Below, in pieces: positions 2,678-64,000 of a DNA stretch of 64,000 nt. The stretch lies in NCBI GenBank assembly GCA_037783545.1, contig JBBELK010000375.1:1240001-1304000 (forward strand). Direction: 5' to 3'. Origin of the DNA: Henricia sp. BOLD:AAB3569 (taxonomy: Eukaryota; Echinodermata; Asteroidea; Spinulosida; Echinasteridae). The notes beneath the pieces were generated by a model. It was not told the origin of the DNA. It did no database searches and saw nothing but the letters and a program-made list of their open reading frames with translations. Each line of letters starts with the position of its first letter. The first letter of the stretch is position 1. A program made the translations under genes and the position numbers.

Positions 2678-2851
2678 GTGAGTGTTTCTCAGGTTTTAGA
2701 CACATTTTAGACACTAACGATGACAAACATGAACGACTTAAGGATGGATAATGCAGCTTGCGTCTTTTAAGCCATGACTTCTCTTCCAATCTCAAAAGGG
2801 AGAAGCACATTGCAGGTATTGCTATAAGAGAAGCACATCCATGAGAGCAGT

Positions 2852-3920: not shown

Positions 3921-4420
3921 AATACCCCTGTCACACCTACCCGCGATCAACCGGCGATCGCTTTGCGCTCCCGGACTTTGAAAATGTTTCCTAGAAAGCG
4001 CAGTGACATCGCCAAAAATTGTGAAATGACATGCACCATGTAGCTCAACAGTATAGCTACGCTCTCACTGCGACCGTATTCCCAGTTTGATCTTCAGTGT
4101 GCTCTCAATACGCTATACCACTGCGCTCTGTGCGCTCTCAGTGCGTCCAAGTCATTGAGCTATATATATATAACTGGAGACGGCATCTGGCTGGAATCGC
4201 GTCCGCGCGTGCATTTTCAAAGTAGGGTAAACAACAATCTTGTTCGTATGCATTGTACACGTACTGCAGCAAAGCACGCAAAGTGACGCGTTAATACCCT
4301 CCCTACGCGCCGCCATTGTACGGCCGCGCATTTCTACACAAACACTCCCAGATGGCGTATCCAGTATATGTATGTAAATCAATGGTCCAAGTCGCTGTTG
4401 CTGCGCTCTCACTACGCTTT

Positions 4421-4660: not shown

Positions 4661-4945
4661 TATGTTTGCAACTCGCTAAATGCGCGTGCGCGACGTGTAT
4701 AAATAGAACCCAGAGGGTAACTAGAGCTTATGTGCTTCACGAAGCACGAATATCAGCCTGAAATAGCTTTTATGAAAGGTTTTTATGACCTTTGAACACT
4801 GCAAAAGGTTGGGGAATTTTTTGACTGGAAATATTATCAAGATGCTGATCCATAGACCATATCGCAAATCAGTTTCCACCAGCAGAGGGCGTCCTTTGCA
4901 ATGCACTATTAGATTAAAAATGGGTCAAATTTGACCAAATTTAAT

Positions 4946-5551
4946 TACAATTGTCCTGCACTAGCGGGAATACAGCGTTTCCTTGATTATACTGTACAGT
5001 CTATTGCAATTGTCCTGCACTACCGAAATAGCCAATACATCGTTTCCTTGATTACTTACTGTACAGTCTATTGCAATTGTCCTGCACTAGCGAAATGGCC
5101 AATACATCGTTTCCTTGATTACTTGTACAGTCTAGCAATTGTCCTGCATTAGCGAAATGGCCAATACATCTTTTCCTTGATTACTGTACCTGCACTAGCG
5201 AAATGGCCAATACATCGTTTCCTTGATTACTATACAGTCTAACAATTGTCCTGCGCTAGCGAAATGGCCAATACAGCGTTTCCTTGATTTACTGTACAGT
5301 CTAACAATTGCCCTGCACTAGCGAAATGGCCAATACAGCGTTTCCTTGATTTACTGTACAGTCTAACAATTGTGCTGCACTAGCGAAATGGCCAATACAT
5401 CGTTTCCTTGATTTACTGTACAGTCTTGCAAATGTCATGCACTAGCGAAATGGCCAATACAGCGTTTCCTTGATTTACTGTACAGTCTAACAATTGTCCT
5501 GCACTAGCGAAATGGCCAATACAGCGTTTCCTTGATTACTGTACAGTCTAT
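4946..5551 (+). repeat. Minisatellite, about 62-bp unit, ten copies
   Basis: The unit begins CAATTGTCCTGCACTAGCG, continues AATGGCCAATACA and TTTCCTTGATT, and ends ACTGTACAGTCTA. Starts are near 4948, 5011, 5073, 5135, 5186 (shortened), 5244, 5306, 5368, 5430 and 5491. Central copies are nearly identical and the first is the most diverged, as expected from unequal exchange. There are no unique spacers, so this is not a CRISPR-like array. Confidence 0.85.
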
Positions 5552-9622: not shown

Positions 9623-11776
9623 TTATTCATTAGGTAAACAAGTTTGGCAATAACCAAAATCGGAACAACAGAAACCTCTTTTGCTAGTTCTGCGTGGGAT
9701 AGAGTGATCTATTCGTAGAGCAAGAGACAAAAAATTTGGCGAGCTGTTGAAAACGGAGTTTCGATCGAACAACGGTGGGGAAAACGAAATCTTAAGCAAC
9801 CGCCAGTCGTGGACGAAACCATTCAAATGGGTTCCGTCCGAACACAATGAGGGCCAAAAATAGGCCGATGTCCATTTGGGGACAATGAGCGTGCCTCGAG
9901 CCTTGCATTTAGAAAGATGTTTTAAGGCGGCTACAATTAGACAAACTGGCGGACAGACGTAATTGTTTTCACGAGACCAATCATGGCAGAAAGCGTCCAC
10001 GCCGGAGGTACCCTTGCACCAAAATCTGGAATTGTATTTACCGACTTTAGAATTACTCGGGGAGGCGAAACGATCAAAAGAATGAGGGCCCCAAATGGCG
10101 TCGATAAGATCAAAACTAGACTGATCAACGGACCAATCGTCATAATCCGTAATTATACTGATACTATCTGCGATCGTGTTAATGTTACGGGGTACCCACT
10201 CTGCCATTAAAACAATGTTAAATTTGAGACAAAGGTTAAAAATGGATATGGCCAGAGATTGCAAGTGCGGTTTAGTACTACCGTGTTCCAAGATACGAGG
10301 AACATTAGTGTTATCTGTATGCCATCTGATTTTCTCGTGCGCGAACTGTTCGGCAAGTTGAAACAATATCTTGAAAACTGCCGCTAACTCGCGCCATGTT
10401 GAGCTGCGCGTTTTCTCTGCTTCCGACCATAATTCATTGCATATCAATTGGGGAGAATGTTGTACGTAACCTCCCCAACCGACGTCGCTCGCGTCTGAAT
10501 AAACGATGCGAGACGGTGTGTGCTGATGCTTGATAGAAAATCCGTTAAGCCTGTCGAGGTTCGATTGCCAGAATTTTAATTCTTCGATTGTTTTGTCTGA
10601 AACGAGAACAGAATCATGCCACGAAATTCTGGATTCAATAGTTCGATAGGCGGCACGTGTCATAAGGCGCGTTATAGGGCCTAAGGCTATGGACATGGCT
10701 ATGAGCTGACCGGTGACGTTAGCGAGAGAACGGACTTGTATAGGAACGGCGAGGGCGTGCTTCGACATAATGTGATTAATTGAGGCATTAAGCTTAACAA
10801 TTTTAGAAGAGGGCACCGTAAAAATTAATGTGCGTGAATCTATGATCATTCCGAGGAATTTGATGGTGGTTTGGGGGTGCCAGATGCACTTCGTTGTGCT
10901 TGGAACAAAACCGCTTTTGACTAGAGTTTGCTGGACAATGCGAGAGTTGTGAAGGGCGGTAGTGAGATCCGGGGAAATGATAAGGCGCGCCAGTGGTAAA
11001 TGGTCTAGTTAATTTGGTGAAAATGTAACATGCGCTGGAGAGACCGAATGGTAACACGCGAAATACATAGAACTTTGTGGAAGAATTCTTGAACTTCCAC
11101 AAGAATCCGAGGTATTTTTGGTGAGGGATAAAAATATCGACGTGGTGGTACCCGGATTCGAGGTCAAAACTAAAGTAATATTGATCGTAATCAAGAACTT
11201 GTGTTTGTGGGCGAGATCTTCGTACTTGAACTTGGTTTTGAAAATAAATTGATTGGGATGACGTAGGTCGAGGACTAACCTTGAGAGGGTTACAGCAATA
11301 AGATGGACTACCGACCTCAATAATGCAACGCTTTTGCAAAAGCTCAGAGATGGCCTTTTCGACAAAGTCGGGGTGTTCCAAACTGGACACGTTATTTTTT
11401 GATAAACATGGGGGTGGAATGGTTAAGAATGGAATTTTGTATCCCGAATCCAAAATATCAATAACAAAAGCACTGGATTTCAACGCATCTTTCCAAAAAG
11501 GAATACATTGCTTCAATCTACCTTGAACTCCGTTTGGTGTCCGAGTGTCGTCTTGATGTTCCCAGTCTCTACGGCTTGTCCGAGGTTCTTGGTCCCTGCG
11601 GTCCTGATTGCTGTAGTGCTCGAAGTGAGGGGCATGATGTACGGATCGACGTGTCCATGAATTCCGCATTGGAAGCAGATGCGGTAGTCTTGAAGGGGGG
11701 CGCGGTAGGGACGAAAATACTGCTGCTGGCGAAAAGCAGTAGAAGAACGAGTAGCAGGCGGCAGCATCTTGGCTAG
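9623..11776 (-). pseudogene. RT and RNase H part of the Ngaro/PAT-like fossil
   Basis: The reading shows a reverse-transcriptase region with the typical YR-retroelement wording (FDLESGYHHV, then FRVLPFGLSSA). After it comes an RNase H domain with YSDASDVGWGGYV, WHTDNTNV and a WVPRNINTIADSIS segment. A zinc-knuckle-like CFQCGIHGHVD belonging to the gag side lies at about 11690. The order and wording fit DIRS-order elements, not LTR elements with a DDE integrase. It is broken; nothing suggests it is used by the host. Confidence 0.75.
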
Positions 11777-22998: not shown

Positions 22999-24562
22999 TT
23001 ATCCACGGGTCCTCCAGCACTTCCATCACTTGATGGTACTTGTCTATAGTGGCGACTCTCGGGACCGTAAAAGAAGTGGCCACTATAAAGAGGTGGCATC
23101 TTTATAGAGGTTGCTTAAGCATTATACACATGGCATTTGGGACCAAAGGTGGGTGGCCACTAAATGCAGGTGGTCTGTTTATCAATGTGGCCTTAAAGTT
23201 GATTGCCCGTGTTTCGGTGAAAGGATTACAAAAAATTAATTTACACAAGCGAACGCATTTAGAAAGCTTACGTGTCTCTGTAACGAAAAATATCAAAAAA
23301 TTGAATTTCCGACGTCGGGAATTGGAGATACAAGCCTTTTTCTTGAAACGTGCTTCACATGTTGTACATGTGCGCGTACGCTCATATGTACATAGTATGT
23401 GTACAATGTACACATGTACGCGCACATCATAACCCTGATTTACGTCATAACCCTGTCGATTAAATGACCTGCCAGCCATTTAATCATTTCTTGTTTTTAA
23501 TCGACTGGCATTAATCCTAGACGGGTTTATACGTTCTTGGTACCAAAGAAAAGCTGATAACTTTTTATATTCTAGAAAAATACCTATTTAACTTTAAACA
23601 AAATATTGTACGCCCAAACACGGGCAGTGCAACTTTAATAGCAGGTTTCACTTAAACTATTCAAACTGACCGTTCTTTTGAATCCAGATCCTTCTCCATT
23701 AACCATGACATAGTCAAGCGTATAAGGAACGAATTGGAAGGAATTTACAAGTATGACATCACCTAAGGCCTCATGTACAAAATGTAGTACGACATTTGAG
23801 GGTCCCCTCCAGGTGAAATCTTCATTATTTTCCCTGCCAATTTCTGTTTGTATTTAAATCTGCACTGTACTGATGGCTAAAAAGTATTTTAAAGTAATTT
23901 TTGTTTAGTGATGTCCGACCTGTGAATTCTTACCCACGAATCACGATATTCAGAGAGCCATTGTATATGCTATAGCATTGTAGGTGTGGCAACGCTGGCC
24001 CAGATTTAGCCCAGGTTGGACGTCCTTGTCTCATTGCATTAATTTACGAAGGACGTCCCTAGGTTACTAAATCTCGACATAAGACGACTGACATGTACAG
24101 TTTTTAAGCTTTTAACCTTCTATGAGTATGAACGTCATACATTATCATTTGTGTCCTCATCTGCAAAAAAAAACTTTCATAAAAATATGCTAATATCTTA
24201 AAGCACAACCTAAAGTTGAATTCCTGGCCAAGGTGCCGTCGATCATAAAGTTCGGAATGATACAAATAAGTGTGCTCACACACAAGTTTTAAAACAGCTT
24301 TGTTAATTTTCTAAAGAAAAGTGCCATTTTGGACAGAGATACATTTTGTTTGGTTTTTCTTGCTAACTAGTGAAGTAAAATGTTCAGTAATTGCAAGGTC
24401 TTTAACGGTCAACATGAGGAAAATGTTTCGCTGAGTGCGTGTGCGTTGACAATTTTTTTGTTAAACTAAAAACGCGTTTTTAACAACCAAATGTTTGTTT
24501 TCTGCCTAAACAGCCTGTGACCCTCAAAATACAGCTTGGTAACCGCCATTTTGGGGTTCAGC
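22999..24562. other. No gene recognised; small repeats
   Basis: At 23050-23200, GGCCACTATAAAGAGGTGGC and related wording repeat imperfectly (GTGGCCACT, AGGTGGTCTGT), a degenerate tandem repeat. At 23355-23420, ACATGTGCGCGTACG and its inverse form an inverted repeat around GTACATAGTATGTGTAC. The remainder is AT-rich without exons I can support. Confidence 0.45.
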
Positions 24563-49018: not shown

Positions 49019-49936
49019 AGCAGCCGATTTCACATAACTTTACGCAATTGCGCAAGTCCACTTACGCCATAAATTATTGCGCAACTTGCGCAATACGTTG
49101 CGGCGCGTTTTACGAAAGTTGCGCCACATTTGGATATGGCGCAACTCGCCGACTTACGCCATAAAATGTGGCGTAACTTGCGCAATGGTTTTTGGTGGCG
49201 TAAGTTGGAAAAATGTGTCGTAGAACAGTGGAAAGTGGCGATAATGCAGCTATAGCTACACGTGCTTATTTACCGCATCGTCAACGAACTGAACCCCAGC
49301 CTTCCGTTAGTAGAAAACAGCCTTTATCAGTGAAATCTGCGACGCGACGCATGATGACCGAGCGACGGCAGCCATGATGACCGTGCAAAATTTGTCAAAA
49401 ACAACGACGTATGTTTTATGTATGACTATTTTATCAAGCGCAAACATCAAATAGGCCTAGTCGTTGATAAACTAGAAATTAGCCTCGTCCTAGAAGTTAC
49501 AAGTGCTAAAGTGAAAAAATAAACGTTGCGCAGCTGAGGAGAGTTTCGTGAAATCGATCTTGGGTTTATTGCGCAGCTACGCCATAAAGTTTCGTGAAAT
49601 CGGCTGCTGCAGCCGATTTTACGAATCCTTGCGCACTGCGTAAGCCCGCTTGCGCAGCTTTTTATTGCGTAAGCTGCGCAACATTTCTGTGATAATTACA
49701 CGCAAGCCTATTGGGCTTATGGCATTTTCAAAAATTGCGCAAGCTGCGCAATTTTTCGTGAAATCGGCTGCAGCAGCCGATTTCACGAAAGAGTGCGCAG
49801 CTTGCGCAACTTTTGCAAAATGGCGCAAGCCCTATAGCTTGCGTGTAATTTTCACAGGAATGTTGCGCAGCCTACGCAATAAAATGTTGCGCAAACGGAC
49901 TTACGCAGTGCGTTAGGATTCGTGAAATCGGCTGCT
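49018..49936. mobile_element. Three abutting MITEs with GCAGCCGATTTCACGAA ends
   Basis: Unit 1 is 49018-49607 (590 bp), unit 2 is 49608-49771 and unit 3 is 49772-49936 (about 165 bp each). Each starts GCAGCCGATTT and ends AAATCGGCTGC. Units 2 and 3 are inverted copies of each other (TGCGCAGCTTGCGCAA, ATGGCGCAAGCC). Interiors are full of TTGCGCAA words. They sit end to end with no spacer, as if each new copy prefers an existing terminus. Confidence 0.75.
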
Positions 49937-50649
49937 GGTCCTTTAAGACCAGCTGTGCGTACGTTCATGTGTGCATACGCGTACACACACACGCGCCTAC
50001 CATGCACGTGCGTAGGATAGGGCGTGCGAAGATGGCATGCACAGTCCGTTGTGGGCTTTTGCCGCACACGCAACACGCGGCAGCCGAGCCGTATTGATTG
50101 CTTTCGATGACGTATTACATGCGGGAATGTGTGGTGGGCAACAGTCACGCGCGTACACACGCGCGCCAATAGACGCACATGAACACGCGTAATAAATACT
50201 CACCAGCGTATTTTCATTCGAAGATGCCACACGCGCGTTGCGATACGTTCAAAATATTGAGCATGTAGTCAGCTTGTAAACACGAAGGTGCTTCTACTTG
50301 ATCGCGATTTTTAGCCTGAAGAAATACGTTTTTATCTTTATCGATACAACAGCCATGGCGCAACAACATAAAGCAAGGTTAAGCAACGGAGGTAAGTGCA
50401 ACCATTTTGCTTTTCTTGCTCTTTTTTGCCGGTTATCACTCGAGCCACGTGCGTTATGACAAATGCCAACCAAAATGGTGGATGGAAGGCGTGACGTCAC
50501 CGAAAAGCAATCAATACACATGGAAGTCTAGCCGGTACAAATTCACCTACTCCTTCGAGCTTTGTTTACGCGCGACACATTTTTCTCATTTTTGGAAATA
50601 AGAAAGAAAATGTTTCTGCTCTTTTTGTTCATAGTGTCTGGTAAAACAT
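49937..50649. other. CpG-rich stretch with a possible first exon
   Basis: 50000-50230 is CpG-rich and may be a promoter region. At 50355 an ATG in GCCATGGCG context opens MAQQHKARLSNGG and runs to GGAG|GTAAGT at 50391/50392, a strong donor. That would be a 12-codon first coding exon in phase 1. No partner exon in a fitting phase was found downstream, so this stays a suggestion. Confidence 0.3.
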
Positions 50650-51336: not shown

Positions 51337-51976
51337 CAACCACACAACGGGGTATGTATACGTCTCATTAATACCTAATGAGCGTTTCAGAAATCGAGAA
51401 AATTTCATTTTCGAAAACCGCACTTTTGCTTGCGATTTATCCACTTAAAACAGGCAATTTGAAATAAACTGTAGTATCGAAAAAAGTGCAAAAGCTGGAT
51501 TTTTCTTCAAGGGGTATAGTAGCTGTTTAAAATAAACGCCAAGTTTATAATCAGGTTTTAACTTCACCATTAAAGATATACAGTCCGTGGTTCTATGTTT
51601 TTGTCCGAACGAATTATATAGTTTTTTCTTGTGTATGTGTTTGGTCTGTTTCAAGTTTTAGTTGGAAAACAGGTAAACAAAGTATTTCCCTATTGATTTG
51701 TCCCAGTAGCAGGACAAGGGTTGCAGTTGCTAAAATTTACTGCGCCGAGCGTTTAAAATTATTCGTTTTCTTCTGGGTATATACTTATGGCCGTTGGTAT
51801 AGCGTTTTAGTTTTTCTTACTGCTTTTTGCAGTTTTGAGATGGTCAATTCCATGTCTTTGTTTCCTTTGTGGCCATCACGCATGGTTTGCTAGTGATGTA
51901 TGTTTCCGCCTGATTACGCGCATTGTTTGTTTTTTGTTTTTTTGCGCGGCGGGAGTTCATTTCGGGCGTGGCATTC
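51337..51976. other. Upstream of the two-exon candidate gene
   Basis: AT-rich sequence becoming T-rich. TTTTTCTTACTGCTTTTTGCAG at about 51808-51830 would be a good splice acceptor, so coding or untranslated exon sequence may begin at 51831. An 87-codon frame after it has a Cys-rich start (CLCFLCGHH) but is in a different frame from the downstream exon and is not supported. Confidence 0.35.
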
Positions 51977-52099
51977 ATGGCACAAGCAAACGCATCGCGG
52001 TGCAACCACTCCCGCATTCTTCATTCAACAGTGCCTGGTTTTCTGGAGGCCGGCATACCTGCCCCTGCCAAGATGGATGTCACTTTCTCTCTAATTAAG
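51977..52099 (+). CDS. Candidate first coding exon, unknown protein
   Basis: The ATG at 51977 opens 41 codons (MAQANASRCNHSRIL, ..., MDVTFSLIK) that end exactly in phase 0 before GTAAGG at 52100. An internal ATG at 52073, in CCAAGATGG context, is an alternative start. The next exon with a fitting phase is 54709-55095. No domain is recognised in this part. The exon could begin earlier, after the acceptor-like run near 51830. Confidence 0.4.
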
Positions 52100-52477
52100 G
52101 TAAGGAATTTAGAGTGTTATTCTGCTTTCTAGCGCAGTCAAATATCGAAGGCCTGTTTCATTGCACGATTGCCATTGTCAGGGCTTCCAGCAGGAAGATT
52201 TCTCCCGGTGGGCATATATTGCTACCTAAATTTGGTGCAACCTGCAAAAATCCACCTAACCCCAGATACTAGCATATCTACGGTTCAAAATTCCCGCCAT
52301 GTGATTAAGGGGCCAGTTGTCCAAAAAAAATAAAATAAAATTGATCATGGCGGCAGGCTTTGTGTACAAAACATATGAGACAGGAAACCAAAACAAAAAA
52401 CAAACAAACAAACAAATCCGATAATGTTCGTTAATGTGATCCGATAGGCCTACTTTACAGATATTTCGTCGGGCTAA

Positions 52478-54582
52478 TAGTAGGAGACCAGCCTGTAGGT
52501 CCCGTGACCAAATTCTGGGAACAAAGGTTTGAAAGTGTTTTTGTGTTCCCTGATGAATACCGAACAATTTTGACTTGGGCTTCCCCCTTGAAAATGTCAG
52601 GCATTTCCGGGAGGGGTCAACAAAGGTCAAACAGGGGTCAAAATTCAAATATATTCTAATTGTGTCGATATGCATATCAATCTACTCGCCTAGTCACGAG
52701 GATTCCAAAAATTTATAGTTTGTTATACCTCCGACCTTAAATGAGGGCGCTGTGGTCAAAAACGTCGAAAGGTCAACGCACTTTTGACTGGTGGTCAAAT
52801 TCACCAACACAGTTAACATTGTCCGATTCTAATGATTTTAGTGTCTAATAATATGTTTTCTGACATGGCAAATTCAACTAAGCAACTTTTAAAAGTAAAA
52901 GTGGTTGCCATAACCTTGAAATTTCAAAATGGCTGCTAAAAGGTTAACATAAATTAGCCAAAAACAACAATTTTTTTCCCAAACCCATGGATAAGAAATT
53001 ATTAAATGTTTGTCACCGAAACGTCACGAACAATTGAAACACTACATTTTTAAAACAAATAATGATTTTTAATTATGTGTATCCTTTTTCTTTAGAGCAC
53101 ATGTTCGATATAATATTGTACGGTATACCATATAAAGTGTATAGGTAAATGATGATGATGATGGGCTGTGAATATCTGCAACAATATAGCTTCAACAACA
53201 TGTTCCCTCATTGGGTAAAAGTTTATGGATGCAATGAAACTGACATTTTACGCTTGGTAAGTACCTCATTGAACCTTTCATACTTTTTTTCATATGTGAT
53301 TGGACCAAAGACACAACAAAAAGTTAATATTTACAAAACAATTGATGGCTTAAACTAGGTTTAAATGGGCCAGAGCCCATATGGCAATATTATGTAACGG
53401 TACATTCCTCAAGCTAGTAATATTAATTGAGTATACAGGACATATAATACTCTGAATCATTGCGACCTTATTTCATGCTTGATGAAAATTGGTCGATTTA
53501 CTTGATCTTCTCTGACCCATATGACTCAATTCTCCGACTCAATTCAGTGAGACAACCCACTGGAAAATGATCAGTAATCGTGTTGACCTTTATTGACTTT
53601 GCCGATTTTGAGGTTTAACACCTGTTCTTTGAGTGAAAAAAAGCCCCTTTTCCCCGTGCATCATATATTAAAAAACAAAACCAAACTATCTGTACATGTA
53701 CTTTGAAATGCGTAGCGAGTTGGTGAGAAACATAGACGTACTTTTTATGTACTCACAAAAGTTTGCAGTGCGGCGCTGTTTTCCGTGTCATTTTCCTGCG
53801 CTGAGCGTAGGGTCACGGAGCTCAGTGAGCAGATGCGCGCAATTTGTTCATATGGGTCAGAGAAGATCAAATAAATCGACCAATTTTCATCAAGCATGAA
53901 ATAAGGTCGCAATGATTCAGAGTATTATATGTCCTGTATACTCAATTAATATTACTAGCTTGAGGAATGTAATAATATTGCCATATGGGCTCTGGCCATT
54001 TGTTTTAAAAATGGAGTGTTTCAATTGTTCGTGACGTTTCGGTGACAAACATTTAATAATTTCTTATCCATGGGTTTGGGAAAAAAATTGTTGTTTTTGG
54101 CTAATTTATGTTAACCTTTTAGCAGCCATTTTGAAATTTCAAGGTTATGGCAACCACTTTTACTTTTAAAAGTTGCTTAGTTGAATTTGCCATGTCAGAA
54201 AACATATTATTAGACACTAAAATCATTAGAATCGGATAATGTTAACTGTGTTGGTGAATTTGACCACCAGTCAAAAGTGCGTTGACCTTTCGACGTTTTT
54301 GACCACAGCGCCCTCATTTAAGGTCGGAGGTATAACAAACTATACATTTTTGGAATCCTCATGACTAGACGAGTAATATGATATGCATATCGACACGATT
54401 GGAATATATTTGAATTTTGACCCCTGTTTGACCTTTGTTGACCCCTCCCGGAAATGCCTGACATTTTCAAAGGGGCAGCCCAAGTCAAAATTGTTCGGTA
54501 TTTATCAGGGAACACAAAAACACTTTCAAACCTTTGTTCCCAGAATTTGGTCACGGGACCTACAGGCTGGTCTCCTACTATA
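52478..54582. mobile_element. 2.1 kb foldback with about 735-base arms
   Basis: TAGTAGGAGACCAGCCTG, GGGAGGGGTCAACAAAGG, GCGCTGTGGTCAAAAACG, CATAACCTTGAAATTTC and CATGGATAAGAAATTAT recur as their inverses in the right half. The left arm (52478-53525) holds about 300 extra bases (53064-53368) absent from the right arm (53850-54582), which gives the unbroken text. The centre is about 325 bases. No transposase is seen. Arms this long suggest either an inverted duplication of one element or a foldback transposon. It lies in the intron of the candidate gene. Confidence 0.8.
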
Positions 54583-54708
54583 ATGTTTTAAAGTCGTAAG
54601 TCAGTCAGACCGCTCCGTTCGGAATCTTTGAGTTTACTCAAACATTTTTCGAATTGTTTTTTTTCAGCATTTATATAGATTGCAGTTTCTGTTGCATTCA
54701 TTTTGCAG

Positions 54709-55095
54709 GAAAATGCCGAGGCCTACTACGACGTAGATAGTGCTGCCTCCCCCTTATTCAAGGGTTTATGCAGCGCTTTCAAGATTTCAAAAAGGTGTTT
54801 CGAAGGTCTCGTCGCCGATGGTTGGGAGGATGTCGACCAGCTTTCGAATCTAGATGAGCGCTGGGGAGAGCACATTTCTGCTTTAGCACCCAACAGCGGG
54901 CAACGTCGGAACCTCGAGAAAATGCTGGAGCGGGTGGCTGCTGGTCCCTTGGACCAGGGTGGAAGGAGCGGTCCTTCAAAGAGGCTAAAGGTTCAAGACA
55001 ATGTACCTGAGGACCCAGAACCGGGGAGCGCAAGTAAAGGTGTAGCTAGTCCTAGCACATCCCAAGCAGCTGCGTCTATAACACCAAGGGAGTAA
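54709..55095 (+). CDS. Candidate last exon, SAM-like helical protein
   Basis: After the acceptor TTCATTTTGCAG the frame reads ENAEAYYDVDSAASP, then a helical part of about 65 residues (LCSAFKISKRCFEGLV, GWEDVDQLSNLDERW, NSGQRRNLEKMLERV). A low-complexity tail with a basic KRLKV follows, ending ITPRE before TAA. The spacing of helices and the G-R-L end recall a SAM or similar five-helix domain; this is a guess from pattern. Such domains mediate protein-protein contacts. A second donor-like site (TCTCAG|GTGAAT) lies 20 bases after the stop. The exon joins in phase 0 with 51977-52099. It could also belong to an unknown transposon. Confidence 0.45.
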   Translation, partial: ENAEAYYDVDSAASPLFKGLCSAFKISKRCFEGLVADGWEDVDQLSNLDERWGEHISALAPNSGQRRNLEKMLERVAAGPLDQGGRSGPSKRLKVQDNVPEDPEPGSASKGVASPSTSQAAASITPRE

Positions 55096-55227
55096 TCATG
55101 CAGGGAAACATCTCAGGTGAATGTTAATTATATTATATTACGTTAGCTTTGTCGCCTTTTCTTTGCGTCGGATTTGGTACGTTCAGAACCGCGCATAAGG
55201 AGAGTTGAGAGTTTCCACACGCGAAGC

Positions 55228-57310
55228 GAGGACGGTCCTCGAGTTGGATATTGTCAATTGCGCTATTGTAGTGCATGGGTTGTTGCATTTGCCATGCATT
55301 TTGTGGAGGACGGGCCTCCGAAATTAATGGATTCGCTAGTGGATTTCCATGTAGAGGGCGGGCCTCTATCCCTTGCTCGTTCGGCGGTTTTAGCCGCCCC
55401 CTCCCCCTTTTTGTTTATTCTCTTTTCCTCGCTCCGCCCCCTCTGCACCTGATGGAGGGGCGGTCACCAAAAAAAAACCAAGAGCATGGAAATATGGAAA
55501 TATCTACCACATGAGGACGGGCCTCGATTGTTTTAGCTGTGTCATAGTATGCGTTGTTGCATTTGTCGTGCACACTATGGAAGGCACCCCACCCCCTACC
55601 CCAAATCCAAGGTTTTTCCATTGCTCTCGCATATAGAGGGTGGGCCTCGGTCCCTTGCTCGTTGGGCCGTTCTTAACAAAGTTTTGCAATCCTGCCCCTC
55701 TACTTTTGCATATTTAGTAGCAAATATGTAACCGCACAGAAGGCCAAAACACGGGGTAAGGAGTTCAAGCTTTGCTAAATATTTATGTGGGAAAAAGTTT
55801 TCCAATTTGTAAGCACTGTTACATGGAGTTTACGTCGAAACGACCAACAGTTAGGGCTTTCCGATCTTTACACGAGGACGGGCCTTAGACATCGAATTCG
55901 TGAACACTTCGCCCACACCCCCTACCCTTTCAATACCGCATTGTTTTATGGGGTCACACTGCCCTGTACCGCATTCTTTCACACAACGCACTGTTTTATG
56001 CAACTTGCAATATTTACTATTTGTAAACCTAAATTTTCCATTTGAAGACTTCGTTTTACAGAAATTCATTGTGTATATTATTTGTAGGCAATGAAATGCT
56101 CTTTCATATGATACCAAACACTTGATTTGGTGGCGTGTGTTACCCTTTTTACGACCACGAGCTGCTCTTCCACCTTGACCGGCGACACCAGCTAGCTACC
56201 CAACGCGTCCACCGGCACCCCGTCCACGGCGGGCCTTTGTAGTAGAAGCACTCGGACCAGGCATATCGTTGTCATCCGATGACATAGACATGGAAGAAAC
56301 TTCACTAGATTCACCGGAATCCTCACTAAGTTCTCTTCAGAACTTTCCAAATCTATATCGGAGTCACTATCAGCAAATAACTCTGCTATTATTTACGCGT
56401 CACGATCAGCCATAATGGTGATATTTTGTCCCAAAAAACAAAAGAAAATTTGTTGCGTGTTGTTTTTCTCGGAAAATCGTAATGGAAACCCCACACGTGT
56501 TATACACCATTGTAAAGCTAGGTCAATGGACTTCCTGACTATATAAAATCCAACAACAGAGGGCAGCAAACGCAAATAATGGAGCTTCTCGAAAACAGCA
56601 GCCTTCTGTTGTCGAGTGAGCTCGACATTGGTACAGAAGCACACTGCGTTGCGCTGTCGAGTGAACTCGACATTGGTATTGAAAGGGATGGAGGACGGGC
56701 CTTTAGAAATGTTTGTGTTCCTCAATCCGGGTATAATTTCTTACCGGTTCAAGGAGGACGGGGCTTGGGCGTACATTTATGATTGCACGTCATGATAAAT
56801 GCCATAGAGAAGACGGGCTTCTTAATCATGCATGTCCGTTTTCGCCCCATTCAAAAATGCGTCGCCGCCATTTCTTATCAGGCGTCAATCCTTTTTAACC
56901 CACCCTTGTTATCTGGAGGATATGCATCCAGTATATGTTTACCATGGTACGTCATCGTCGACGTTTTAGAAAATGAGCCTCCGGATCGTTGGTACTAATT
57001 TTCCTATCCGACGTTCGGCCAAGGGATCTTTGACGTACAGTGGATGTCATGTGTCATGACAGCAGAGGACGGGCCTCGGCATCTGTTTTGGCAATACAGA
57101 GGGTGAATTTCAGTCCCCTTGGTCATTGGCATCATTCCCTAGAGGACGGGCCTCGGGTAAATTTCACCTTTCGTATGTTACCAGGGAATTGCCGCAAATT
57201 TCTGCCATTATGCCGTCTCCGGGCCTTGCGGGTAGGCCTCTGATACTCATCGTACGAAGCACGAAATCCCGTGGTGTCGACATTGCACCCAAAAGCAGAG
57301 GACGGGCCTC
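55228..57310 (+). repeat. Array of twelve GAGG-ACGGG-CCTC hairpins
   Basis: Hairpins start at 55228, 55306, 55354, 55513, 55636, 55874, 56691, 56754, 56809, 57065, 57142 and 57298, each 13 bases. All have the same orientation: a 4-bp stem GAGG/CCTC and a five-base loop ACGGG (variants ACGGT, GCGGG, GTGGG). Unit 9 has GAAG/CTTC, a paired change. Flanks often extend the stem differently in each unit: C-G in 1, G-C in 2, TA-TA in 3, A-T in 9 and 12. Spacing is irregular (35-805 bases between units), and most of the DNA between units is not repeated, except CCCTTGCTCGTT after units 3 and 5 and GTTGTTGCATTTG after 1 and 4. No function is known to me. Confidence 0.8.
56130..56413 (-). pseudogene. 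Decayed acidic/Arg-Gly-rich frame (transposase N-terminus?)
   Basis: On the minus strand ATGGCTGATCG opens MADRDA; after a stop the same frame reads IIAELFADSDSDIDLESS. A shift then gives SEDSGESSEVSSMSMSSDD, followed by PSASTTKARRGRGAGGRVG. An acidic Ser-rich start followed by an RG-rich stretch is usual at the N-terminus of piggyBac-derived and some other transposases, and also of host chromatin proteins. At least two stops and one shift show decay. It lies in the one large gap of the hairpin array. Confidence 0.35.
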
Positions 57311-57324
57311 TCATTTAAGGTTGA

Positions 57325-58497
57325 AGCCCAATTCATACTCGCTCGGCGACCTACATGCGGAACGGATATTTTGTCCGCCGCAGTTGCGGCGAGTAGGGTC
57401 AAACAAGTTCAACAGTGCGCGGTCAGTTCGCATCTGAGCGCACGGGTCGTTTCTATCCGTTTCTACTGTGCGCGCGCTCAATCCGTTCCTGTTCCGTTCA
57501 AGATAAACCAAGTTTATCTTTTTGCGCTTTGCGCGTGACCCCGACACGTCGTGACACGTATAGGCCTATGCCAACTTTGCAATGAACTGACAGCAGATGT
57601 TCACATGTTATACTGGTGCCATATAAAATGGTTTTTGTCAAGAAAAAAACAATTTCGTCACATGAGAATGAGCGATTATAAATGAAAGAACTGGGGAATT
57701 ACCCGAATTTGTACAATCATGGATTGTCATGGGTAATTCCATAAAAACGGGACACTGTCCCCCTTACGTTGTGACACTTCTGGAGTTGATTTTTTGTAAT
57801 TACCGGACTTCAGAATTACCCTCGGCATATAAATAATATGAGCTCATGAATCGAACATCACCTTTATCTGTTGATACTATAATACACAAAACATAACGAG
57901 AACGATTCAATAAACTAGTGCGATCTTGTAAATGCAAGTGTGGCATTTTGAAATATTTCGCTCATAATGTAATTTGAATTTATAAAGTCCAAGTTCGACA
58001 GCTGGGTAGAATCAGCAAATACCTTTTCCAGAACGAAACTGGTCAAAAAGACTTGAAATGTAATGGCTAGAAACAATTTTCTTGAATATTTTTAAGACAT
58101 TATTTCACATTAGAAATTGCACAGAAACTTCTTTAAACAATTTTGTTAACATATGAAATACCATTTTTACAAATGCATCAAAATGTCACACTTTGGGTCC
58201 TGTTTTTATGGAAATACCCATATGCCGCTTGCTCCCCGCGGTGGGGTATTTTTGAGAGATTAATACACGAAAGCTAACGGTCGATTGTACAGTAGCCTAT
58301 ACGGGGCCGGGTCGGCGCAACACCACCGCTGAGTATGAATTAAATTGCGCACTCAAAGTGCGCCGTGTGCCCGATTTTTACCTCGGCGACTTATATTAGC
58401 GCAAAGAGGACTTGTTTGAACGCGTGAAAACTCTGCGGCGACTACACTCGGCGAGTATGCGGCGAGTGAGTTCGGCGAAGAAGTATGAACCTAGCTT
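57325..58497. mobile_element. Family E element, 1.2 kb copy
   Basis: Left end GCCCAATTCATACTCGC and right end GAAGTATGAACCTAGC match the two ends of the 323-bp MITE at 32249. The 0.8 kb between them is AT-rich. It includes an inverted pair (GGGGAATTACCCG, TGGGTAATTCC) but no transposase. It begins 15 bases after the last hairpin of the array. Confidence 0.7.
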
Positions 58498-59541
58498 GAG
58501 GTTTTTTCAAATAGAGACGCGGCCGTATATGTAACTTTGGATGGGTCATTATGCATGTTCACACGAATAGGATTCGCTTTTACACATCCCTAGCCTTTTT
58601 ACGCTAAAAAATCATTACAGGGACAAACCGGCTGTTGGGCTATTTTGGGCTCGAAATAGACTCGTACATAATTCTGAAAGTCTTTCCGAAATAGATTTTA
58701 GAGAACCTAAAAAGAAACCACAAAATTTCGCCGTTTTCTTGCATTTTTCAAATCAATCGATGTCACGTAACTTATCGGAACCAGATTCTGGTTCCGATAA
58801 ATCACGTGTCCCTGGAGTTAGTTTTATTTCCAGCCGTATGGCAGTGTGATACAGTTGATGCCTAAAGTTTATTACTGCAGTATTGCATCAAATTCAGCTC
58901 TTATTTTTTTTCCAAATATGTATGAGTATTTGACAAAAGAGACTATTTATTAAGGTTATGAAACAAAGTTACACATAACTCTGAAAAATCGAACATAACA
59001 TTTTTACACAAAGTCCGAGGAACCGAAGCGAGTCCACCGTGGACAGTCTACCGGACAATGTGACATTTAACCCCATGGCACACACACGTTGCCCGCCCAA
59101 AACCGGTAGAGTGCCGTGGAACTACAATTGTACTTTCGTGAATGAAAACAAACTATGAATGTCAGCTCCTCTACAGAAAACGGAAAAACCATTCGGTCGT
59201 CCAGGCTGTCCAGTGAAATCTTCAGCAGAAAATTAAATATTTCCAAAGCAAAAAGCTTCCAAGTGAAGAGCGAATCGTTTCCGACAGAGTCGTGAGTCTC
59301 GCGCAATAGTTAACGGCTGGTAAAGCGTATAACTCGACTATTGACATTTAAAAAAAATTAATTTTAAGCTTTTGTTGGTAATTACGGGACACTTTGGCGA
59401 TCTTTTTCACAAGGACCATCAAAAAAGGATTGTCAAGATGCTGTTTCACTAAATTACGTAAACAGTAGGCCGGTGTGTACCTTTAAGTTATAAAAACAGT
59501 CAATTATTATGTTAGTTGTATTTTTACAAACACCATGCACA
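58498..59541. other. Repeat family G copy and spacer
   Basis: 58590-58850 is the reverse of 18040-18260 (GGGCTATTTTGGGCTCGA, a TATCGGAACCAGATTC hairpin, GGAGTTAGTTTTATTTCC). From 58860 to 59541 I see no gene. AGTCCGAGG...AGTCTACCGGACAATG gives no clear structure. Confidence 0.45.
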
Positions 59542-59710
59542 ATTCTATTACATAACATTCGTACAAGTCTTCAGAGGGTTTGCATTCCTTTCTACGTGAT
59601 AGGCATGCGGACCACACAATACATTCAAAGCATGTATTGTTATTCAAATGAGTCAGGCTGAGAGTCGTGCATATAAGGCCAGGTAGGAAAGCACAAGGCA
59701 TCTTTTTTTC

Positions 59711-61822
59711 GTGTGCACAGCATTGCGGACAGACGTCATGGACTCGCTGGATATCGAGGCACAGTCCGACTTTGACACAGAAATCCAACCTGGACAGGGC
59801 CTCGGGACTCGAGGCACATCGACTGAAAGCTTTGAAGCGAAGCTTCAAGCTAACTCTCGGGGGATAAAGAATTTATCTTCCTCTGTGGCTAGCATGCATG
59901 ATATGCTAGCGGCCCTACTGGATAAGAAACAGTATGACACGACACCGATGGTCGACCAAGAAACGCTATACGATGATGTCGACGATCTGGACTGGCTTGG
60001 TCAGCAGGGTACCTGCTATGACCCCCAACAAAGCCTAGAGCTGACCAGTAACGTGGCAGCTGAATCTCCCCCTGGCGCTAGTCATGGAGACTTTGACAAT
60101 CTTCCTTGTGAAGACATGTATAACATTGATGAGGCTACAGGCCAAGAGGTTTTTGCCGGTCTGGCTGAAAGAACCACAAAAGCCGTCACTTTGCCTATAA
60201 AAAAGGACGTGCTTTCCAAACTCGCCGACAAATATGTCACACCGGCCAATGCAGCGGCTGTAACAGCCCCTAGAGTGAACCCCGATTTGTGGGCAACAAT
60301 TCCGGTGACCGCTAGATCCAAGGACGCGGCCTCACAGCAGATTCAGAAACACGTCATCAAAGGCATGTTGCCATATCTGAATATTCTCACAGAGTTGCGA
60401 GAATCTACAAAGTCCGGTACTCCAGTAAAGGTGGACAAAATCAAAGAACTGGCCCTTGATGGCATTTCCATGACCGGCAACGCTTCATACCAAATGAGCA
60501 TGAAGCGGAGAGAGGAACTAAAGCCATGTTTAAACCCCATGTACAGAGGTTTATGTTCCCGCAATACACCGGTTTCCGAACAATTGTTTGGCAAGGATTT
60601 GAACGCCACCATGAAGCAAGTGGCCGAAGCATATAAAGCTGGCCGGAGATTGACATCTTCTGAGGGCAATAACAGACGGGGATCAAACAGACGCTATGAT
60701 CCATATCCCCGCAAGCCTCGTGGCCAACCCCAGGGTCGCAATTATACTGGCCGAGATCGCCATAGCTACGGGCAATCCTCATCATACTACCAGAGCGGTA
60801 ACCGTCGGGGACGTCACTGGGGAAAGAACCAGTCCAAATCGGCCGAGTCGAGCCAGGATACCCAGAATATAAAAAACTGGTATGTTTCCCCCGCTTACTC
60901 GACCAAAATTCTGGCGAGTGCCGGGCGGTTAAGAAATTTCCATTACAACTGGTCTCAGATCACCTCTGACAAGTGGATATTGAACACCGTTTCTGGTTGC
61001 CGAATCGATTTCATTGAAAATCCCGTGCAGACCTACTTGCCTCCAAAAATGTCGTTTAACAATAAGGAAATATGCCTTATTGACAAGGAAATTCAAGATC
61101 TCCTTACAAAGGGTGCCATTCGGCCCATCCATCGATCTGATTGCAAGTTCGTATCCAACATATTTCTTATTCCCAAGAAATCTGGAGGCCTCAGACCAGT
61201 TGTAAATCTGAAAAACCTAAATAAGTATGTTCGATATGAACATTTCAAAATGGAAAATGTAAAACTCGTTAAAGAGCTTATTGGTTGTAATGACTGGCTT
61301 ACATCAATTGATCTGAAAGATGCATATTTTTCGATTCCTATATGCCAAGAGCATCATGCATATTTATCCTTTTCTTGGAACGACCAATATTATGCATTTA
61401 CTTGCTTGCCCTTCGGGCTAAGTTCAGCTCCCCGTATTTTCACAAAAACAATGAAACCTATTCTAGCAGCAGCTAGAAGTAACGGGATTCGTCTGGTTAT
61501 CTTTTTGGACGACATTCTCATCATGGCCTCGTCAGTAGACGAGTGTCTAAACCACACCAAATTTATGGTACAGCTACTTGAGTCTTTGGGGTTCATTATT
61601 AATGAGGCAAAATCCTGCTTAACTCCCCAGACCAACGCCCTTTATCTTGGCTTGGAGTTTCAGTCATCCAAAATGACAATTAGTGTTCCAAAATCAAAAA
61701 TCCAGAAATTACAATCAGAGGGAACTCAGTTAATATCAAAACGGATTGTTACCATACGCCATTTGGCTAGATTCATTGGCTTGATTATTTCAACCTTTGA
61801 TGCATTTCCGAAAGGCAAATAG
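59711..61822 (+). CDS. DIRS-like gag-like and reverse transcriptase region
   Basis: The likely start is the ATG at 59738 (MDSLDIEAQSDFDTE). The first 350 residues are gag-like: an acidic start, a helical body and an Arg/Gly/Tyr-rich tail. The reverse transcriptase follows with SGGLRPVVNLKNLNKYV, LTSIDLKDAYFSIPI, FTCLPFGLSSAPRIF and IFLDDILIMAS in the usual order. That gag and RT share one long frame is a variation on the common two-frame layout. Part of the DIRS-like fossil; host use is not suggested. Confidence 0.85.
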   Translation: MCTALRTDVMDSLDIEAQSDFDTEIQPGQGLGTRGTSTESFEAKLQANSRGIKNLSSSVASMHDMLAALLDKKQYDTTPMVDQETLYDDVDDLDWLGQQGTCYDPQQSLELTSNVAAESPPGASHGDFDNLPCEDMYNIDEATGQEVFAGLAERTTKAVTLPIKKDVLSKLADKYVTPANAAAVTAPRVNPDLWATIPVTARSKDAASQQIQKHVIKGMLPYLNILTELRESTKSGTPVKVDKIKELALDGISMTGNASYQMSMKRREELKPCLNPMYRGLCSRNTPVSEQLFGKDLNATMKQVAEAYKAGRRLTSSEGNNRRGSNRRYDPYPRKPRGQPQGRNYTGRDRHSYGQSSSYYQSGNRRGRHWGKNQSKSAESSQDTQNIKNWYVSPAYSTKILASAGRLRNFHYNWSQITSDKWILNTVSGCRIDFIENPVQTYLPPKMSFNNKEICLIDKEIQDLLTKGAIRPIHRSDCKFVSNIFLIPKKSGGLRPVVNLKNLNKYVRYEHFKMENVKLVKELIGCNDWLTSIDLKDAYFSIPICQEHHAYLSFSWNDQYYAFTCLPFGLSSAPRIFTKTMKPILAAARSNGIRLVIFLDDILIMASSVDECLNHTKFMVQLLESLGFIINEAKSCLTPQTNALYLGLEFQSSKMTISVPKSKIQKLQSEGTQLISKRIVTIRHLARFIGLIISTFDAFPKGK

Positions 61823-61854
61823 CATTTCCGAAAGGCAAATAGCATTTCCGTCAA

Positions 61855-62553
61855 TTGGAGCATTTTAAAAGTAACGCCCTCCTGAAGGAATGTGGAAACT
61901 TTGACGCCAAAGTGGCAGTCACCCCTATGGTTATTCAAGAGATTGAATGGTGGTTGTCTCTACCCATTGATATGGTGAAATCACCTATTAAAATCCCGCC
62001 AATTGACTTGGTTATTTTCACAGATGCCAGCAAGACAGGCTGGGGCGCTATCTGCAAATCGGATAATTCATTCTCCCAGGGTAAGTGGTCAACCACCCAG
62101 CAAGATTTACATATCAATGCTTTGGAACTGACAGCAGTGCTGAACGGATTGCGCTCTCTTTGTGACAATCTAGACCATGCCCATGTCCTGATCAAATCGG
62201 ACAATAGCACAACAGTTTCATACATTTCGAAAATGGGCGGCACTGTCGGCACCTTGAATGACATCGCGTCAGCCATTTTTCAGTGGTGCGTCCAAAGAGA
62301 CATACATTTGTCCGCAACACATGTTGCGGGTATTGAAAACTCCATGGCAGATTTTCTTTCTCGAAAAGAACTAAATAAAGAATTGAATCTAGCGCCAGAG
62401 ATTTTTTCTGACATTGTGGGAAAAACCTTACAACCGCATATTGATTTATTCGCATCCCACGTCAATCATAAATTAAAGCGTTATGTCTCTTGGAAAGCAG
62501 ACCCTATAACGCTTGGGCAATTGACGCTTTTTCATTGTCCTGGTCGAACATGA
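61855..62553 (+). CDS. DIRS-like RNase H region
   Basis: FTDASKTGWGAIC, ELTAVLNGLRSLC, IKSDNSTTVSYISKMGG and ATHVAGIENSMADFLSR are the standard steps of the RNase H domain in DIRS elements. The IDLFASHVNHKLKRY wording follows, commonly found in the linker before the recombinase. Part of the same element as the neighbouring frames. Confidence 0.85.
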   Translation: MEHFKSNALLKECGNFDAKVAVTPMVIQEIEWWLSLPIDMVKSPIKIPPIDLVIFTDASKTGWGAICKSDNSFSQGKWSTTQQDLHINALELTAVLNGLRSLCDNLDHAHVLIKSDNSTTVSYISKMGGTVGTLNDIASAIFQWCVQRDIHLSATHVAGIENSMADFLSRKELNKELNLAPEIFSDIVGKTLQPHIDLFASHVNHKLKRYVSWKADPITLGQLTLFHCPGRT

Positions 62554-62647
62554 TTCCATATATTTTTCCTCCAATTTGTTTGCTTTCTAGAATTCTAGAC
62601 AAACTAAACAGAGACAAAACGCCGGCGAGCCTGGTAATCGCCCCGAT

Positions 62648-63769
62648 TTGGAAAGCCCAACCATGGTTTCCACAGATGCTCCAGATGTTAATGGCCCCTC
62701 CAATCATCCTACCAGTGGAATGTCTGGCTGCTCCACACCAGCTGCAACATCAAATACCGAACCTACGCTTGGCCGCTTGGCTCATCTCAAGTTTCAATGG
62801 CAAACAAAAGGCTTTTCAGTAGAAGCTTCCAACATCCTCGCAAACTCATGGAGGATGCGCACTGAAAAACAATACGACTCAGCATGGAACTGTTGGTCTA
62901 ATTGGTGTAGTCAACAACAGATTGATCCACTCAATCCCGCTTTAGCGGACATAATTAATTTTTTAGCTTATGAACACTCTCAAGGAAAGTCATATGCCAC
63001 TTTAAACACCTACAGATCGGCACTGTCATCAATACTACCTACGATTGAGGGGCATACAGCGGGCCAGCATCCCCTGATAGGAAGACTGCTTAAAGGGGTG
63101 TTCAATTTAACGCCCCCAAAACCGAAATATTCCACGATGTGGAAAGTTTCTACAGTTTTAGATTATCTCAGTTCATTGCCGGAAAACAAAGAGCTTCCAC
63201 TATTAAGTCTGAGCGAAAAACTTCTGGCTTTAATGGCCCTGGTATCGGCTCAACGCTCACAAACGTTGGCATGTTTAGACTTACGTTATTTTAATTTTCT
63301 TGACACCTCATGTGTCATTACAGTCATGGATATTTTAAAAACAACTTGCCCAAAGAAGGGCGTTGGAAATAACAAGATAGTTATTCCACAATTTGATGAG
63401 AACTCCAAGCTGTGCGTTCTTACCACACTAAAATATTATTTACAACGCACAGAGGTTCTTAGAGCCGAGAGTAAAGAAACTAGATTATTTTTGTCAACTA
63501 GGAAACCACATAAAGGGGTTACTTCCTCCACATTAGCTAGGTGGATGAAGAGTGTTTTATTTAAAGCAGGGATAGATGTTTCGATTTATTCTGCACATCG
63601 TTTTCGTAGTGCATCCACCTCTACAGCCTTTGCCCATGGTGTAAGTCTGCATGAAATTTTAAAGACAGCAGATTGGACAAACGCTAATACGTTTGCTAAG
63701 TTTTACCTCAAGTCAACAGAAGGATCGTCTTTGTCTTTTGGAAAAACAATACTGAGTTCTTGTAACTGA
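62648..63769 (+). CDS. DIRS-like tyrosine recombinase
   Basis: About 370 residues. The N-terminal half has the core-binding helices (YDSAWNCWSNWC, YATLNTYRSALSSILP). The catalytic half has LVSAQRSQTLACLDL (first Arg), YSAHRFRSASTS (His-x-x-Arg box) and FAKFYLKSTE (active Tyr). Family members join a circular cDNA to the target by site-specific recombination without making a target duplication. Part of the DIRS-like fossil. Confidence 0.88.
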   Translation: MESPTMVSTDAPDVNGPSNHPTSGMSGCSTPAATSNTEPTLGRLAHLKFQWQTKGFSVEASNILANSWRMRTEKQYDSAWNCWSNWCSQQQIDPLNPALADIINFLAYEHSQGKSYATLNTYRSALSSILPTIEGHTAGQHPLIGRLLKGVFNLTPPKPKYSTMWKVSTVLDYLSSLPENKELPLLSLSEKLLALMALVSAQRSQTLACLDLRYFNFLDTSCVITVMDILKTTCPKKGVGNNKIVIPQFDENSKLCVLTTLKYYLQRTEVLRAESKETRLFLSTRKPHKGVTSSTLARWMKSVLFKAGIDVSIYSAHRFRSASTSTAFAHGVSLHEILKTADWTNANTFAKFYLKSTEGSSLSFGKTILSSCN

Positions 63770-63865
63770 TTGGATTGAAATAAACGAGTAAAATATTTAC
63801 ATACATGTACTACAAGCGTGCGATCGATTAATATGTAACGTTACAACGTTACAAAGCTTTGAACA

Positions 63866-64000
63866 TGCAAACCCTCTGAAGACTTGTACGAATGTTATGT
63901 AATAGAATTCCTAAATTATGTAAATGAATGAAATATAATTGGAATTCTATTAATAAATAATGAGTACAAGTCGAAGAGGGTCCCTCCCCTCTTTCCTTAC
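63866..64000 (+). repeat. DIRS right inverted repeat and internal complementary region
   Basis: 63866-63909 is the inverse of 59542-59585. 63938-63985 (ATTCTATTAATAAATAATG, then TACAAGTCGAAGAGGG) is a diverged direct copy of the left repeat, as expected of the internal complementary region. It is cut by the window edge, so its full length is unknown. Confidence 0.7.

Follow-up and report, generated by a model that had tools for sequence, protein, structure and literature searches.

A stretch of 64,000 nucleotides (nt) from the sea star Henricia sp. BOLD:AAB3569 (assembly GCA_037783545.1, contig JBBELK010000375.1, here C375, positions 1,240,001 to 1,304,000; hereafter the window) contains twelve palindromic units with the consensus GAGG-ACGGG-CCTC. 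All twelve of the same-strand units that the original prediction had described are present, on the + strand (Table 1). The array is part of a decayed tyrosine-recombinase (DIRS/Ngaro-like) retrotransposon and is located in intron 2 of that element. The window copy (L020) is broken: matches to the element occupy positions 51618-52479, 54581-55922, 56688-57322 and 58493-58535 with other DNA between them, that at 52480-54580 parting the 5′ piece from exon 2. At the site of the insert that breaks the array, the sister copies L058 and L059 continue with few bases between the flanking matches. Neither a CCHC exon nor a reverse transcriptase (RT) exon was found for the window copy, and C375 is absent among the best 150 of 601 exon-4 candidates. 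The nearest sisters, L057-L060, carry corresponding hairpins whose order is kept, with single units lost or changed. A stop codon does precede the array by 133 bases, at 55095, but it marks the end of a frameshifted reading frame rather than of a gene: exon 2 of the window copy shifts frame before the donor at 55117, which is the natural end of the exon and is reached by the frame of L057. Because the upstream 'gene' is an exon with a splice donor at its end, the ideas of a free-standing RNA gene and of a 3′ untranslated region element were rejected.

Table 1. Features of the decayed retrotransposon copy and its hairpin array in the window.
Feature	Position	Strand	Basis
5′ part of decayed element copy, upstream of exon 2	51618..52479	+	92.7% match to L058 1065-1910
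Exon 2, SAM-like (by eye) / Gag-like coding exon, 408 nt	54709..55116	+	acceptor AG 54707-54708, end read directly
Splice donor GT (CAG/GTGAATG) opening hairpin intron	55117..55118	+	read directly
Remainder of intron 2 (hairpin intron), insert included	55117..57322	+	matches L058, L059 up to 57322
Hairpin unit 1 GAGGACGGTCCTC	55228..55240	+	motif scan
Hairpin unit 2 GAGGACGGGCCTC	55306..55318	+	motif scan
Hairpin unit 3 GAGGGCGGGCCTC	55354..55366	+	motif scan
Hairpin unit 4 GAGGACGGGCCTC	55513..55525	+	motif scan
Hairpin unit 5 GAGGGTGGGCCTC	55636..55648	+	motif scan
Hairpin unit 6 GAGGACGGGCCTT	55874..55886	+	motif scan
Foreign insert breaking array	~55923..56687	.	element matches end 55922, restart 56688
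Hairpin unit 7 GAGGACGGGCCTT	56691..56703	+	motif scan
Hairpin unit 8 GAGGACGGGGCTT	56754..56766	+	motif scan
Hairpin unit 9 GAAGACGGGCTTC	56809..56821	+	double change, common to L058 and L059
Hairpin unit 10 GAGGACGGGCCTC	57065..57077	+	motif scan
Hairpin unit 11 GAGGACGGGCCTC	57142..57154	+	motif scan
Hairpin unit 12 GAGGACGGGCCTC	57298..57310	+	motif scan
Last recognizable element fragment in window	58493..58535	+	sister-copy match

Scanning of the window for the motif with up to three mismatches produced 21 matches compared to 5.9 expected, a number that was reached in 0 of 100 shuffles. Twelve of these matches were the units, seven were unit sites read on the - strand and two were elsewhere. 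The mean pairwise identity of the twelve cores was 0.88, whereas that of eight flanking bins was 0.21-0.30 which is the level of unrelated DNA. Thus, the motif itself seems to be under selection in the window. The text between units, described earlier as mostly unrelated, is indeed at chance in the flanks, but includes two longer similar pairs of 72 nt and 33 nt. The GAAG/CTTC unit with both stem sides altered also exists; however, the same unit is found in L058 and L059, and L060 possesses GAAG/CCTC in which the pair is broken. Recurrence in sister copies points to one old event. The claim that the pair immediately outside the stem is maintained was not borne out in the window, where position -1 is Watson-Crick in 5/12 units against ~3.3 anticipated from composition, which is not significant (counted by eye, with our own arithmetic). 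Among 144 distinct but related units of the window's class (class A, below), position -1 was paired in 73 compared to 60.4 expected (P 0.004), position -2 in 62 compared to 58.4 (P 0.25), and position -3 in 18 compared to 22.3. The Rfam scan of the window gave 0 matches at the gathering threshold, and the three weak matches in L009 and L012 (E 0.033-0.31) all were under the gathering score, so that no known RNA family was assigned to the units in these three sequences.

The distribution of such arrays was assessed in the organism's own assembly (740.7 Mb). A search with the exon-2 protein yielded at least 122 matches, the window included, when the best 150 of 298 candidates were scored. Thirty exon-2 loci were then scanned for any repeated perfect palindrome with a 4-bp stem and a 5-nt spacer. 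At 26/30 loci, among them that in the window, the 1.5 kb 3′ of the exon held an array of one kind with 5-16 units in the same orientation as the exon, whereas 20 shuffles per locus gave a maximum of 3 units and the 1.5 kb upstream a maximum of 4. The four loci outside this set are L025, in which the array is further on (35 matches in L061), L029, L046 and L047. Sense and antisense unit matches in the 26 array loci numbered 253 and 15, respectively, and the upstream 1.5 kb of these loci was devoid of units save at L034, the exon of which is ~1 kb from a second copy. Six classes were distinguished: class A, GAGG-ACGGG-CCTC; class B, GGGG-ACGGG (or ACAGG, TTAGG)-CCCC; class C, GGGG-ATGCG-CCCC with a ~71-bp period; class D, GGGG-CTGGG-CCCC; class E, GGGG-ATGAG-CCCC; and class F, GAGG-TTGGA (or TCGGA)-CCTC. 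Class E cores (L040) were 0.73 identical with flanks at or near chance, and regular arrays with 47-48-bp, 58-bp and 71-bp units were seen in L009-type copies, L061/L062 and L030, respectively. A protein repeat was discounted because one frame is not maintained across unit spacings of 47/48, 58 and 71 nt. In the class C loci L030-L034, L043 and L048, the ~71-bp repeat has a second perfect palindrome, TCAAATCTATTTGA, besides GGGGATGCGCCCC.

The 30 loci are not independent: many are near-identical, and 31 exon sequences correspond to 19 distinct proteins. When seven labels (six classes plus 'no array') are placed on the exon-2 tree, 6 changes are required, which is the minimum, compared to 10.9 for shuffled labels, and class A alone requires 2 changes. 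By this measure the hairpin class follows the exon-2 phylogeny. The tree separates classes A and F, in which the second pair is A-T, from classes B, C, D and E, in which it is G-C, with modest support (79/90); consequently, the second-pair swap probably was one compensated event.

Intron 2 separates the Gag-like exon 2 from the RT exon 4. The end of exon 2 reads CAG/GT in 23/30 loci. Among the remainder, the frame is broken before the donor in L022 as in the window copy, L024 includes a stop, L038 has a changed donor, L029 is without a donor, and L046 and L047 are without the intron. In the intronless copy L046/L063 (contig C1051), exon 2 ending in GAGCCACAGCAG is directly joined to the RT-exon sequence GAACTTTTGCG, whereas L044 and L045 read on as GTGAATAAT at this point. 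Exon 1 of this copy also is fused to exon 2, at the point where L044 has TTTTTCAG/GAAAAACCC. Both the exon 1/exon 2 and the exon 2/exon 4 junctions were set against donor and acceptor sites in L044, L045 and L049; the copy belongs to another clade than the window copy. The existence of an intronless copy implies that exon 2-exon 4 splicing occurs. L063 bears no hairpin of its clade's class. The sister copy L057 provides the fuller layout, in which the array (2482-4252) is followed by a CCHC zinc-knuckle frame (E 2.2e-6) and then by exon 4. The CCHC frame is preceded by an acceptor-like TTTTTAG and has a stop at its end, where no donor was seen, and we infer that it is an alternative exon 3. 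Exon 4 of L057 follows the acceptor TTTTATTCAG/GAGTACC; its matches to RT_RNaseH (E 1.1e-4) and to RVT_1 (E 6.6e-4) fall short of the Pfam curated cut-offs, and the RVT_1 match of L063 is weak (E 0.037).

The extent to which the intron persists was gauged by pairing 122 exon-2 places (best 150 of 298 candidates) with 150 exon-4 places (best 150 of 601) on one strand within 20 kb. This produced 86 pairs with a median spacing of 3853 nt, of which four share exon 4 with another pair (on C842, where exon 2 is split, C298, C192 and C99) leaving 82 distinct exon-4 places. The spacing was 889-19275 nt in 84 pairs, including 7 at >10 kb, and 166 nt in two pairs which both are on C1051 and probably reflect one event. 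Hairpins in the gap were viewed at fetched loci only. As the length of the intron is kept in nearly all pairs, loss of intron 2 is rare and the RNA that is reverse transcribed is, as a rule, one that retains it. In classes C and D no intron-1 acceptor was seen, exon 1 apparently being fused (by eye), and the array is kept. If intron 1 was lost in these classes, RNAs that lacked it but retained intron 2 founded lineages of several copies.

The exact class-A 13-mer occurs 2397 + 2352 (4749) times in the genome compared to 3 + 2 for a backward control pattern. Among 100 listed of the 4749 perfect units, all are in five clusters (L009-L013) with a repeated layout which represent one interspersed element of ~10.3 kb, the copies being ~89-98% alike outside the array. 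The window exon 5′ of the array shares 59% amino acid identity (E 5e-22) with L012 1945-2127 which also is 5′ of an array. L009 has split direct repeats of 64 nt (1291-1354 and 11250-11313) and 81 nt (11175-11255 and 11519-11599), and in self-comparison the arrangement A1-[open reading frames (ORFs)]-B1A2B2 was evident in 3/5 copies (L009, L010 and L011). No repeat pair was detected in L012 and L013 in that comparison, yet both match parts of the repeats in L009. These repeats were defined in L009-type copies; the ends of the window copy were not found. The possibility that the units are decayed copies of a longer repeat holds for the L009 type, in which they reside in 47-48-bp tandems, but not for the window subfamily, in which the likeness of the flanks is lost and the core is kept. 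On contig C624 (207003-235318), one strand carries six matches to the RT exon, five at intervals of ~5110 bp; this is a tandem array of element bodies, perhaps generated as recombination products of a tyrosine-recombinase element.

We conclude from the comparison of copies that a palindromic motif is maintained, on either the RNA or the DNA level. Tentatively, the array may be a cis signal of unspliced genomic RNA with a role in its packaging, in its export or in the control of its splicing. As the array is removed from spliced messages, it would mark the full-length genomic RNA, and this reading is best supported because the spliced product lacks the array and most propagated copies keep the intron. 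The earlier suggestion of a protein-bound RNA element is in keeping with the intron site, the coding-strand orientation and the retention of the stem while the class letters change; the G-U counts given below are flat, and covariation is no more than suggestive. In column shuffles of the related class A units, the outer pair showed 5 compensated changes compared to 1.1 (P 0.001) and the third pair 3 compared to 0.6 (P 0.017). Compensation at the second and fourth pairs of class A was not above chance, and no stem pair of classes B-E was below P 0.1. After thinning to one unit per flank cluster (133 clusters, class F included), 8.5 compensated pairs remained against 4.6 expected (mean P 0.05). 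Genome-wide, outer-pair double changes in class A numbered 5, with 3 in the control and 0.15 expected under independence. As the control is too close, only the two double changes in arrays are claimed (C57, in L057; C291, in the L061 stretch). The variant GGGGACGGGCCCC occurs 16 times genome-wide (control 6), 15 of these in threes on five contigs. As RNA, 19-mers fold as drawn in classes A, B and C at -6.9 to -8.9 kcal/mol and in the GAAG/CTTC unit of the window at -4.9 kcal/mol. In the examples of classes D and F, a 5-bp stem closing a 3-nt loop is favored, and in that of class E a 6-nt loop.

Several results count against an RNA signal read by the element's own protein. An RNA stem would tolerate G-U more than A-C. 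No excess of G-U over A-C was evident among distinct units (47 vs. 55) or among units common to at least two loci (15 vs. 20), and the genome-wide outer pair of class A comprised 16 G-U (control 24) vs. 44 A-C (control 2); these counts thus do not favor RNA over a DNA palindrome. Unpaired double changes are nearly as numerous as compensated ones in the 133 flank clusters (7.1 vs. 8.5), and the energies of the 19-mer folds are not all unusual (z -0.10 to -2.59). Because the scan sought perfect palindromes, the class references are palindromic by construction; the recurrence of one palindrome kind 5-16 times at one place is not imposed by the design. The L009-type units sit in tandem repeats beside degenerate coding sequence, and simple amplification therefore explains much of the unit count. 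Most copies look dead, and this decay hides selection. As for RNA binding by exon 2, Pfam found no match to the domain, the single-sequence fold was poor with a predicted local distance difference test score (pLDDT) of 53, and Foldseek with that model returned no match and was uninformative. Profile matches of exon 2 were non-significant (E 1.1-1.3) and concerned a protein that contains a SAM domain.

If the array does mark unspliced RNA, one protein would find many sites in its several to tens of short stem-loops. The reader would most economically be the element's own Gag-like product, with the exon-2 domain and/or the zinc knuckle as candidates. Binding might hold back splicing of intron 2, or might pick the RNA that is exported and packaged into the particle in which reverse transcription takes place. 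The array would be renewed by tandem duplication, and the letters of the stem-loop would drift along with the protein clade that reads them. The more elaborate proposal, in which the clade encodes both a rapidly evolving Gag-like protein that binds hairpins and, in a retained intron, the array that matches it, splicing sorts messenger from genome, and co-divergence furnishes subfamily-private keys, is rather doubtful at present. Retroelements with introns require signals of this kind, and a precedent for special export of their intron-containing RNA is Cer1, a retrotransposon protein of which is reported in PMC10309623 to be required to export Cer1 unspliced RNA.

A DNA-level protein-binding array is a serious rival, if a somewhat unlikely one. 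Each unit then would be an inverted-repeat site (half-sites GRGG/CCYC, ~9 bp center to center) for a dimeric host or element protein, and the array an internal enhancer, silencer or insulator. The absence of a wobble preference in pairing and the greater constancy of stems than of spacers between classes are as expected of such sites, and enhancers and insulators typically comprise arrays of sites, as the gypsy insulator does with its zinc-finger binding sites. However, units of one class also have a conserved spacer, and nearly all units point the same way, both of which tandem duplication could explain. Moreover, a DNA site need not be confined to an intron, yet units are wanting upstream of the exon in the array loci apart from L034. 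It is less probable still that the array is a selfish minisatellite in which palindromes make reverse transcription slip or switch templates, and units thereby multiply and homogenize with no benefit to the element. The regular 47-48-bp, 58-bp and 71-bp arrays and the variation in array length and spacing between families would suit this process, but would leave unexplained why flanks in the window subfamily and class E have fallen to chance or near it around conserved cores, and why one-palindrome arrays occupy the same place in six classes. An independent tiny mobile hairpin akin to mitochondrial GC clusters, for which the alike cores and unrelated flanks would speak, is highly improbable as sister copies share units in the same order, the strand is nearly fixed, and all inspected units belong to this element family, including the 100 listed of 4749 places which all are in five L009-type copies.

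An ORF in L063 includes an ALOG domain (PF04852, E 1.4e-15, 58 bits against a cut-off of 26.6; one copy), a link between the family and the ALOG DIRS1 retroposons of PMC3537659. The catalytic residues of the L063 tyrosine recombinase were judged by eye, and a recombinase also is present in L009-type copies. An SGNH-like segment was noted by eye before the L063 recombinase, where Pfam shows none. In exon 2 of the window copy, the stretch EHISALAPNSGQRRNLEKMLERV (54868-54936) resembles TAL-effector repeats at ≤~5 bits per match, probably by chance; TAL-effector kinship was rejected as the PDB profile matches (E to 8e-10) sum many repeats of ≤~5 bits each and are an artefact.

The window harbors further repeats. 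A separate DIRS-like element at 59541-63909 was considered and rejected as the source of the array. Its 45-bp ends are perfect inverted repeats, and it has reading frames for RT (E 3.5e-25), RNase H and tyrosine recombinase; within it, a 20-bp unit is repeated 2.5 times at the site of a frame break (61802-61850). Fragments of the L009-type intron lie outside the array at 23192-23603 and 53539-53845 (84 and 90% identical to L009, respectively), and at 49607-49941 a stretch of 169-172 bp from the L009-type element (L009 9803-9974) occurs twice as an inverted pair. Inverted repeats of 162 bp (94%) and 61 bp (98%) are located at 53000-54058, between the 5′ part of the element and exon 2, and a 62-67-bp tandem unit beginning CCTGCACTAGCGAAATGGCC, ~90% alike, spans 4944-5550.

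ALOG-type DIRS1 retroposons, as treated by Iyer and Aravind (2012, PMC3537659) in the sections that concern them, link the ALOG domain with DIRS1-type recombinases. The elements here resemble them in a tyrosine recombinase ORF with ALOG (L063), a zinc knuckle and weakly matching RT-RNase H frames, and in their many dead copies in marine animals. By contrast, the main text of that paper lacks the word intron and its section on these elements includes no hairpin array. An inactive adenine methylase domain is a feature of these retroposons in the same section, whereas no Pfam match to a methylase domain was obtained in five ORFs of two decayed copies here. Split direct repeats A1-B1A2B2 distinguish Ngaro-like elements according to passages of PMC8547959 and PMC9210276. 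Those of L009, each pair 100% identical, and the same layout in L010 and L011 are Ngaro-like, but in the present family Gag and RT are separated by a multi-kilobase intron that holds palindrome arrays. Neither PMC9210276 nor PMC3266345 uses the words intron, hairpin or palindrom. In the passages of PMC8547959 there is no hairpin and two intron passages concern virophage and host genes, and in those of PMC12477816, which cover Ngaro, neither 'hairpin' nor 'spliced' occurs. Across titles and abstract openings of open-access literature (subscription journals and Repbase lying outside this scope) nothing was found that concerned hairpin arrays or a conserved intron in elements of the DIRS/Ngaro kind, and the hairpin-array intron is provisionally regarded as novel.

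The arrays constitute a class-specific repeated cis element with a fixed site beside a protein that is inherited together with it, in an intron that most copies keep, which makes selection of genome RNA directly testable in this group. To our knowledge, how genomic RNA is chosen in tyrosine-recombinase retrotransposons is not settled. Retroviral psi, the Rev response element (RRE) and the constitutive transport element (CTE) are packaging or export signals confined to unspliced RNA. The hairpin array differs from these in its many small repeated units, and is like them in that it would sit past a splice donor and be lost on splicing, a likeness of position; export elements of this kind are named in PMC4829213. 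The six classes also offer natural protein/hairpin pairs for in vitro specificity swaps. The SAM domain of Smaug/Vts1 binds a hairpin ligand. Several of the classes here are without a CNGG loop, and the SAM identity of exon 2 was assigned by eye only, but the combination of a SAM-like helical domain (by eye) with short stem-loops, some with CNGG-like loops, resembles that of Smaug/Vts1.
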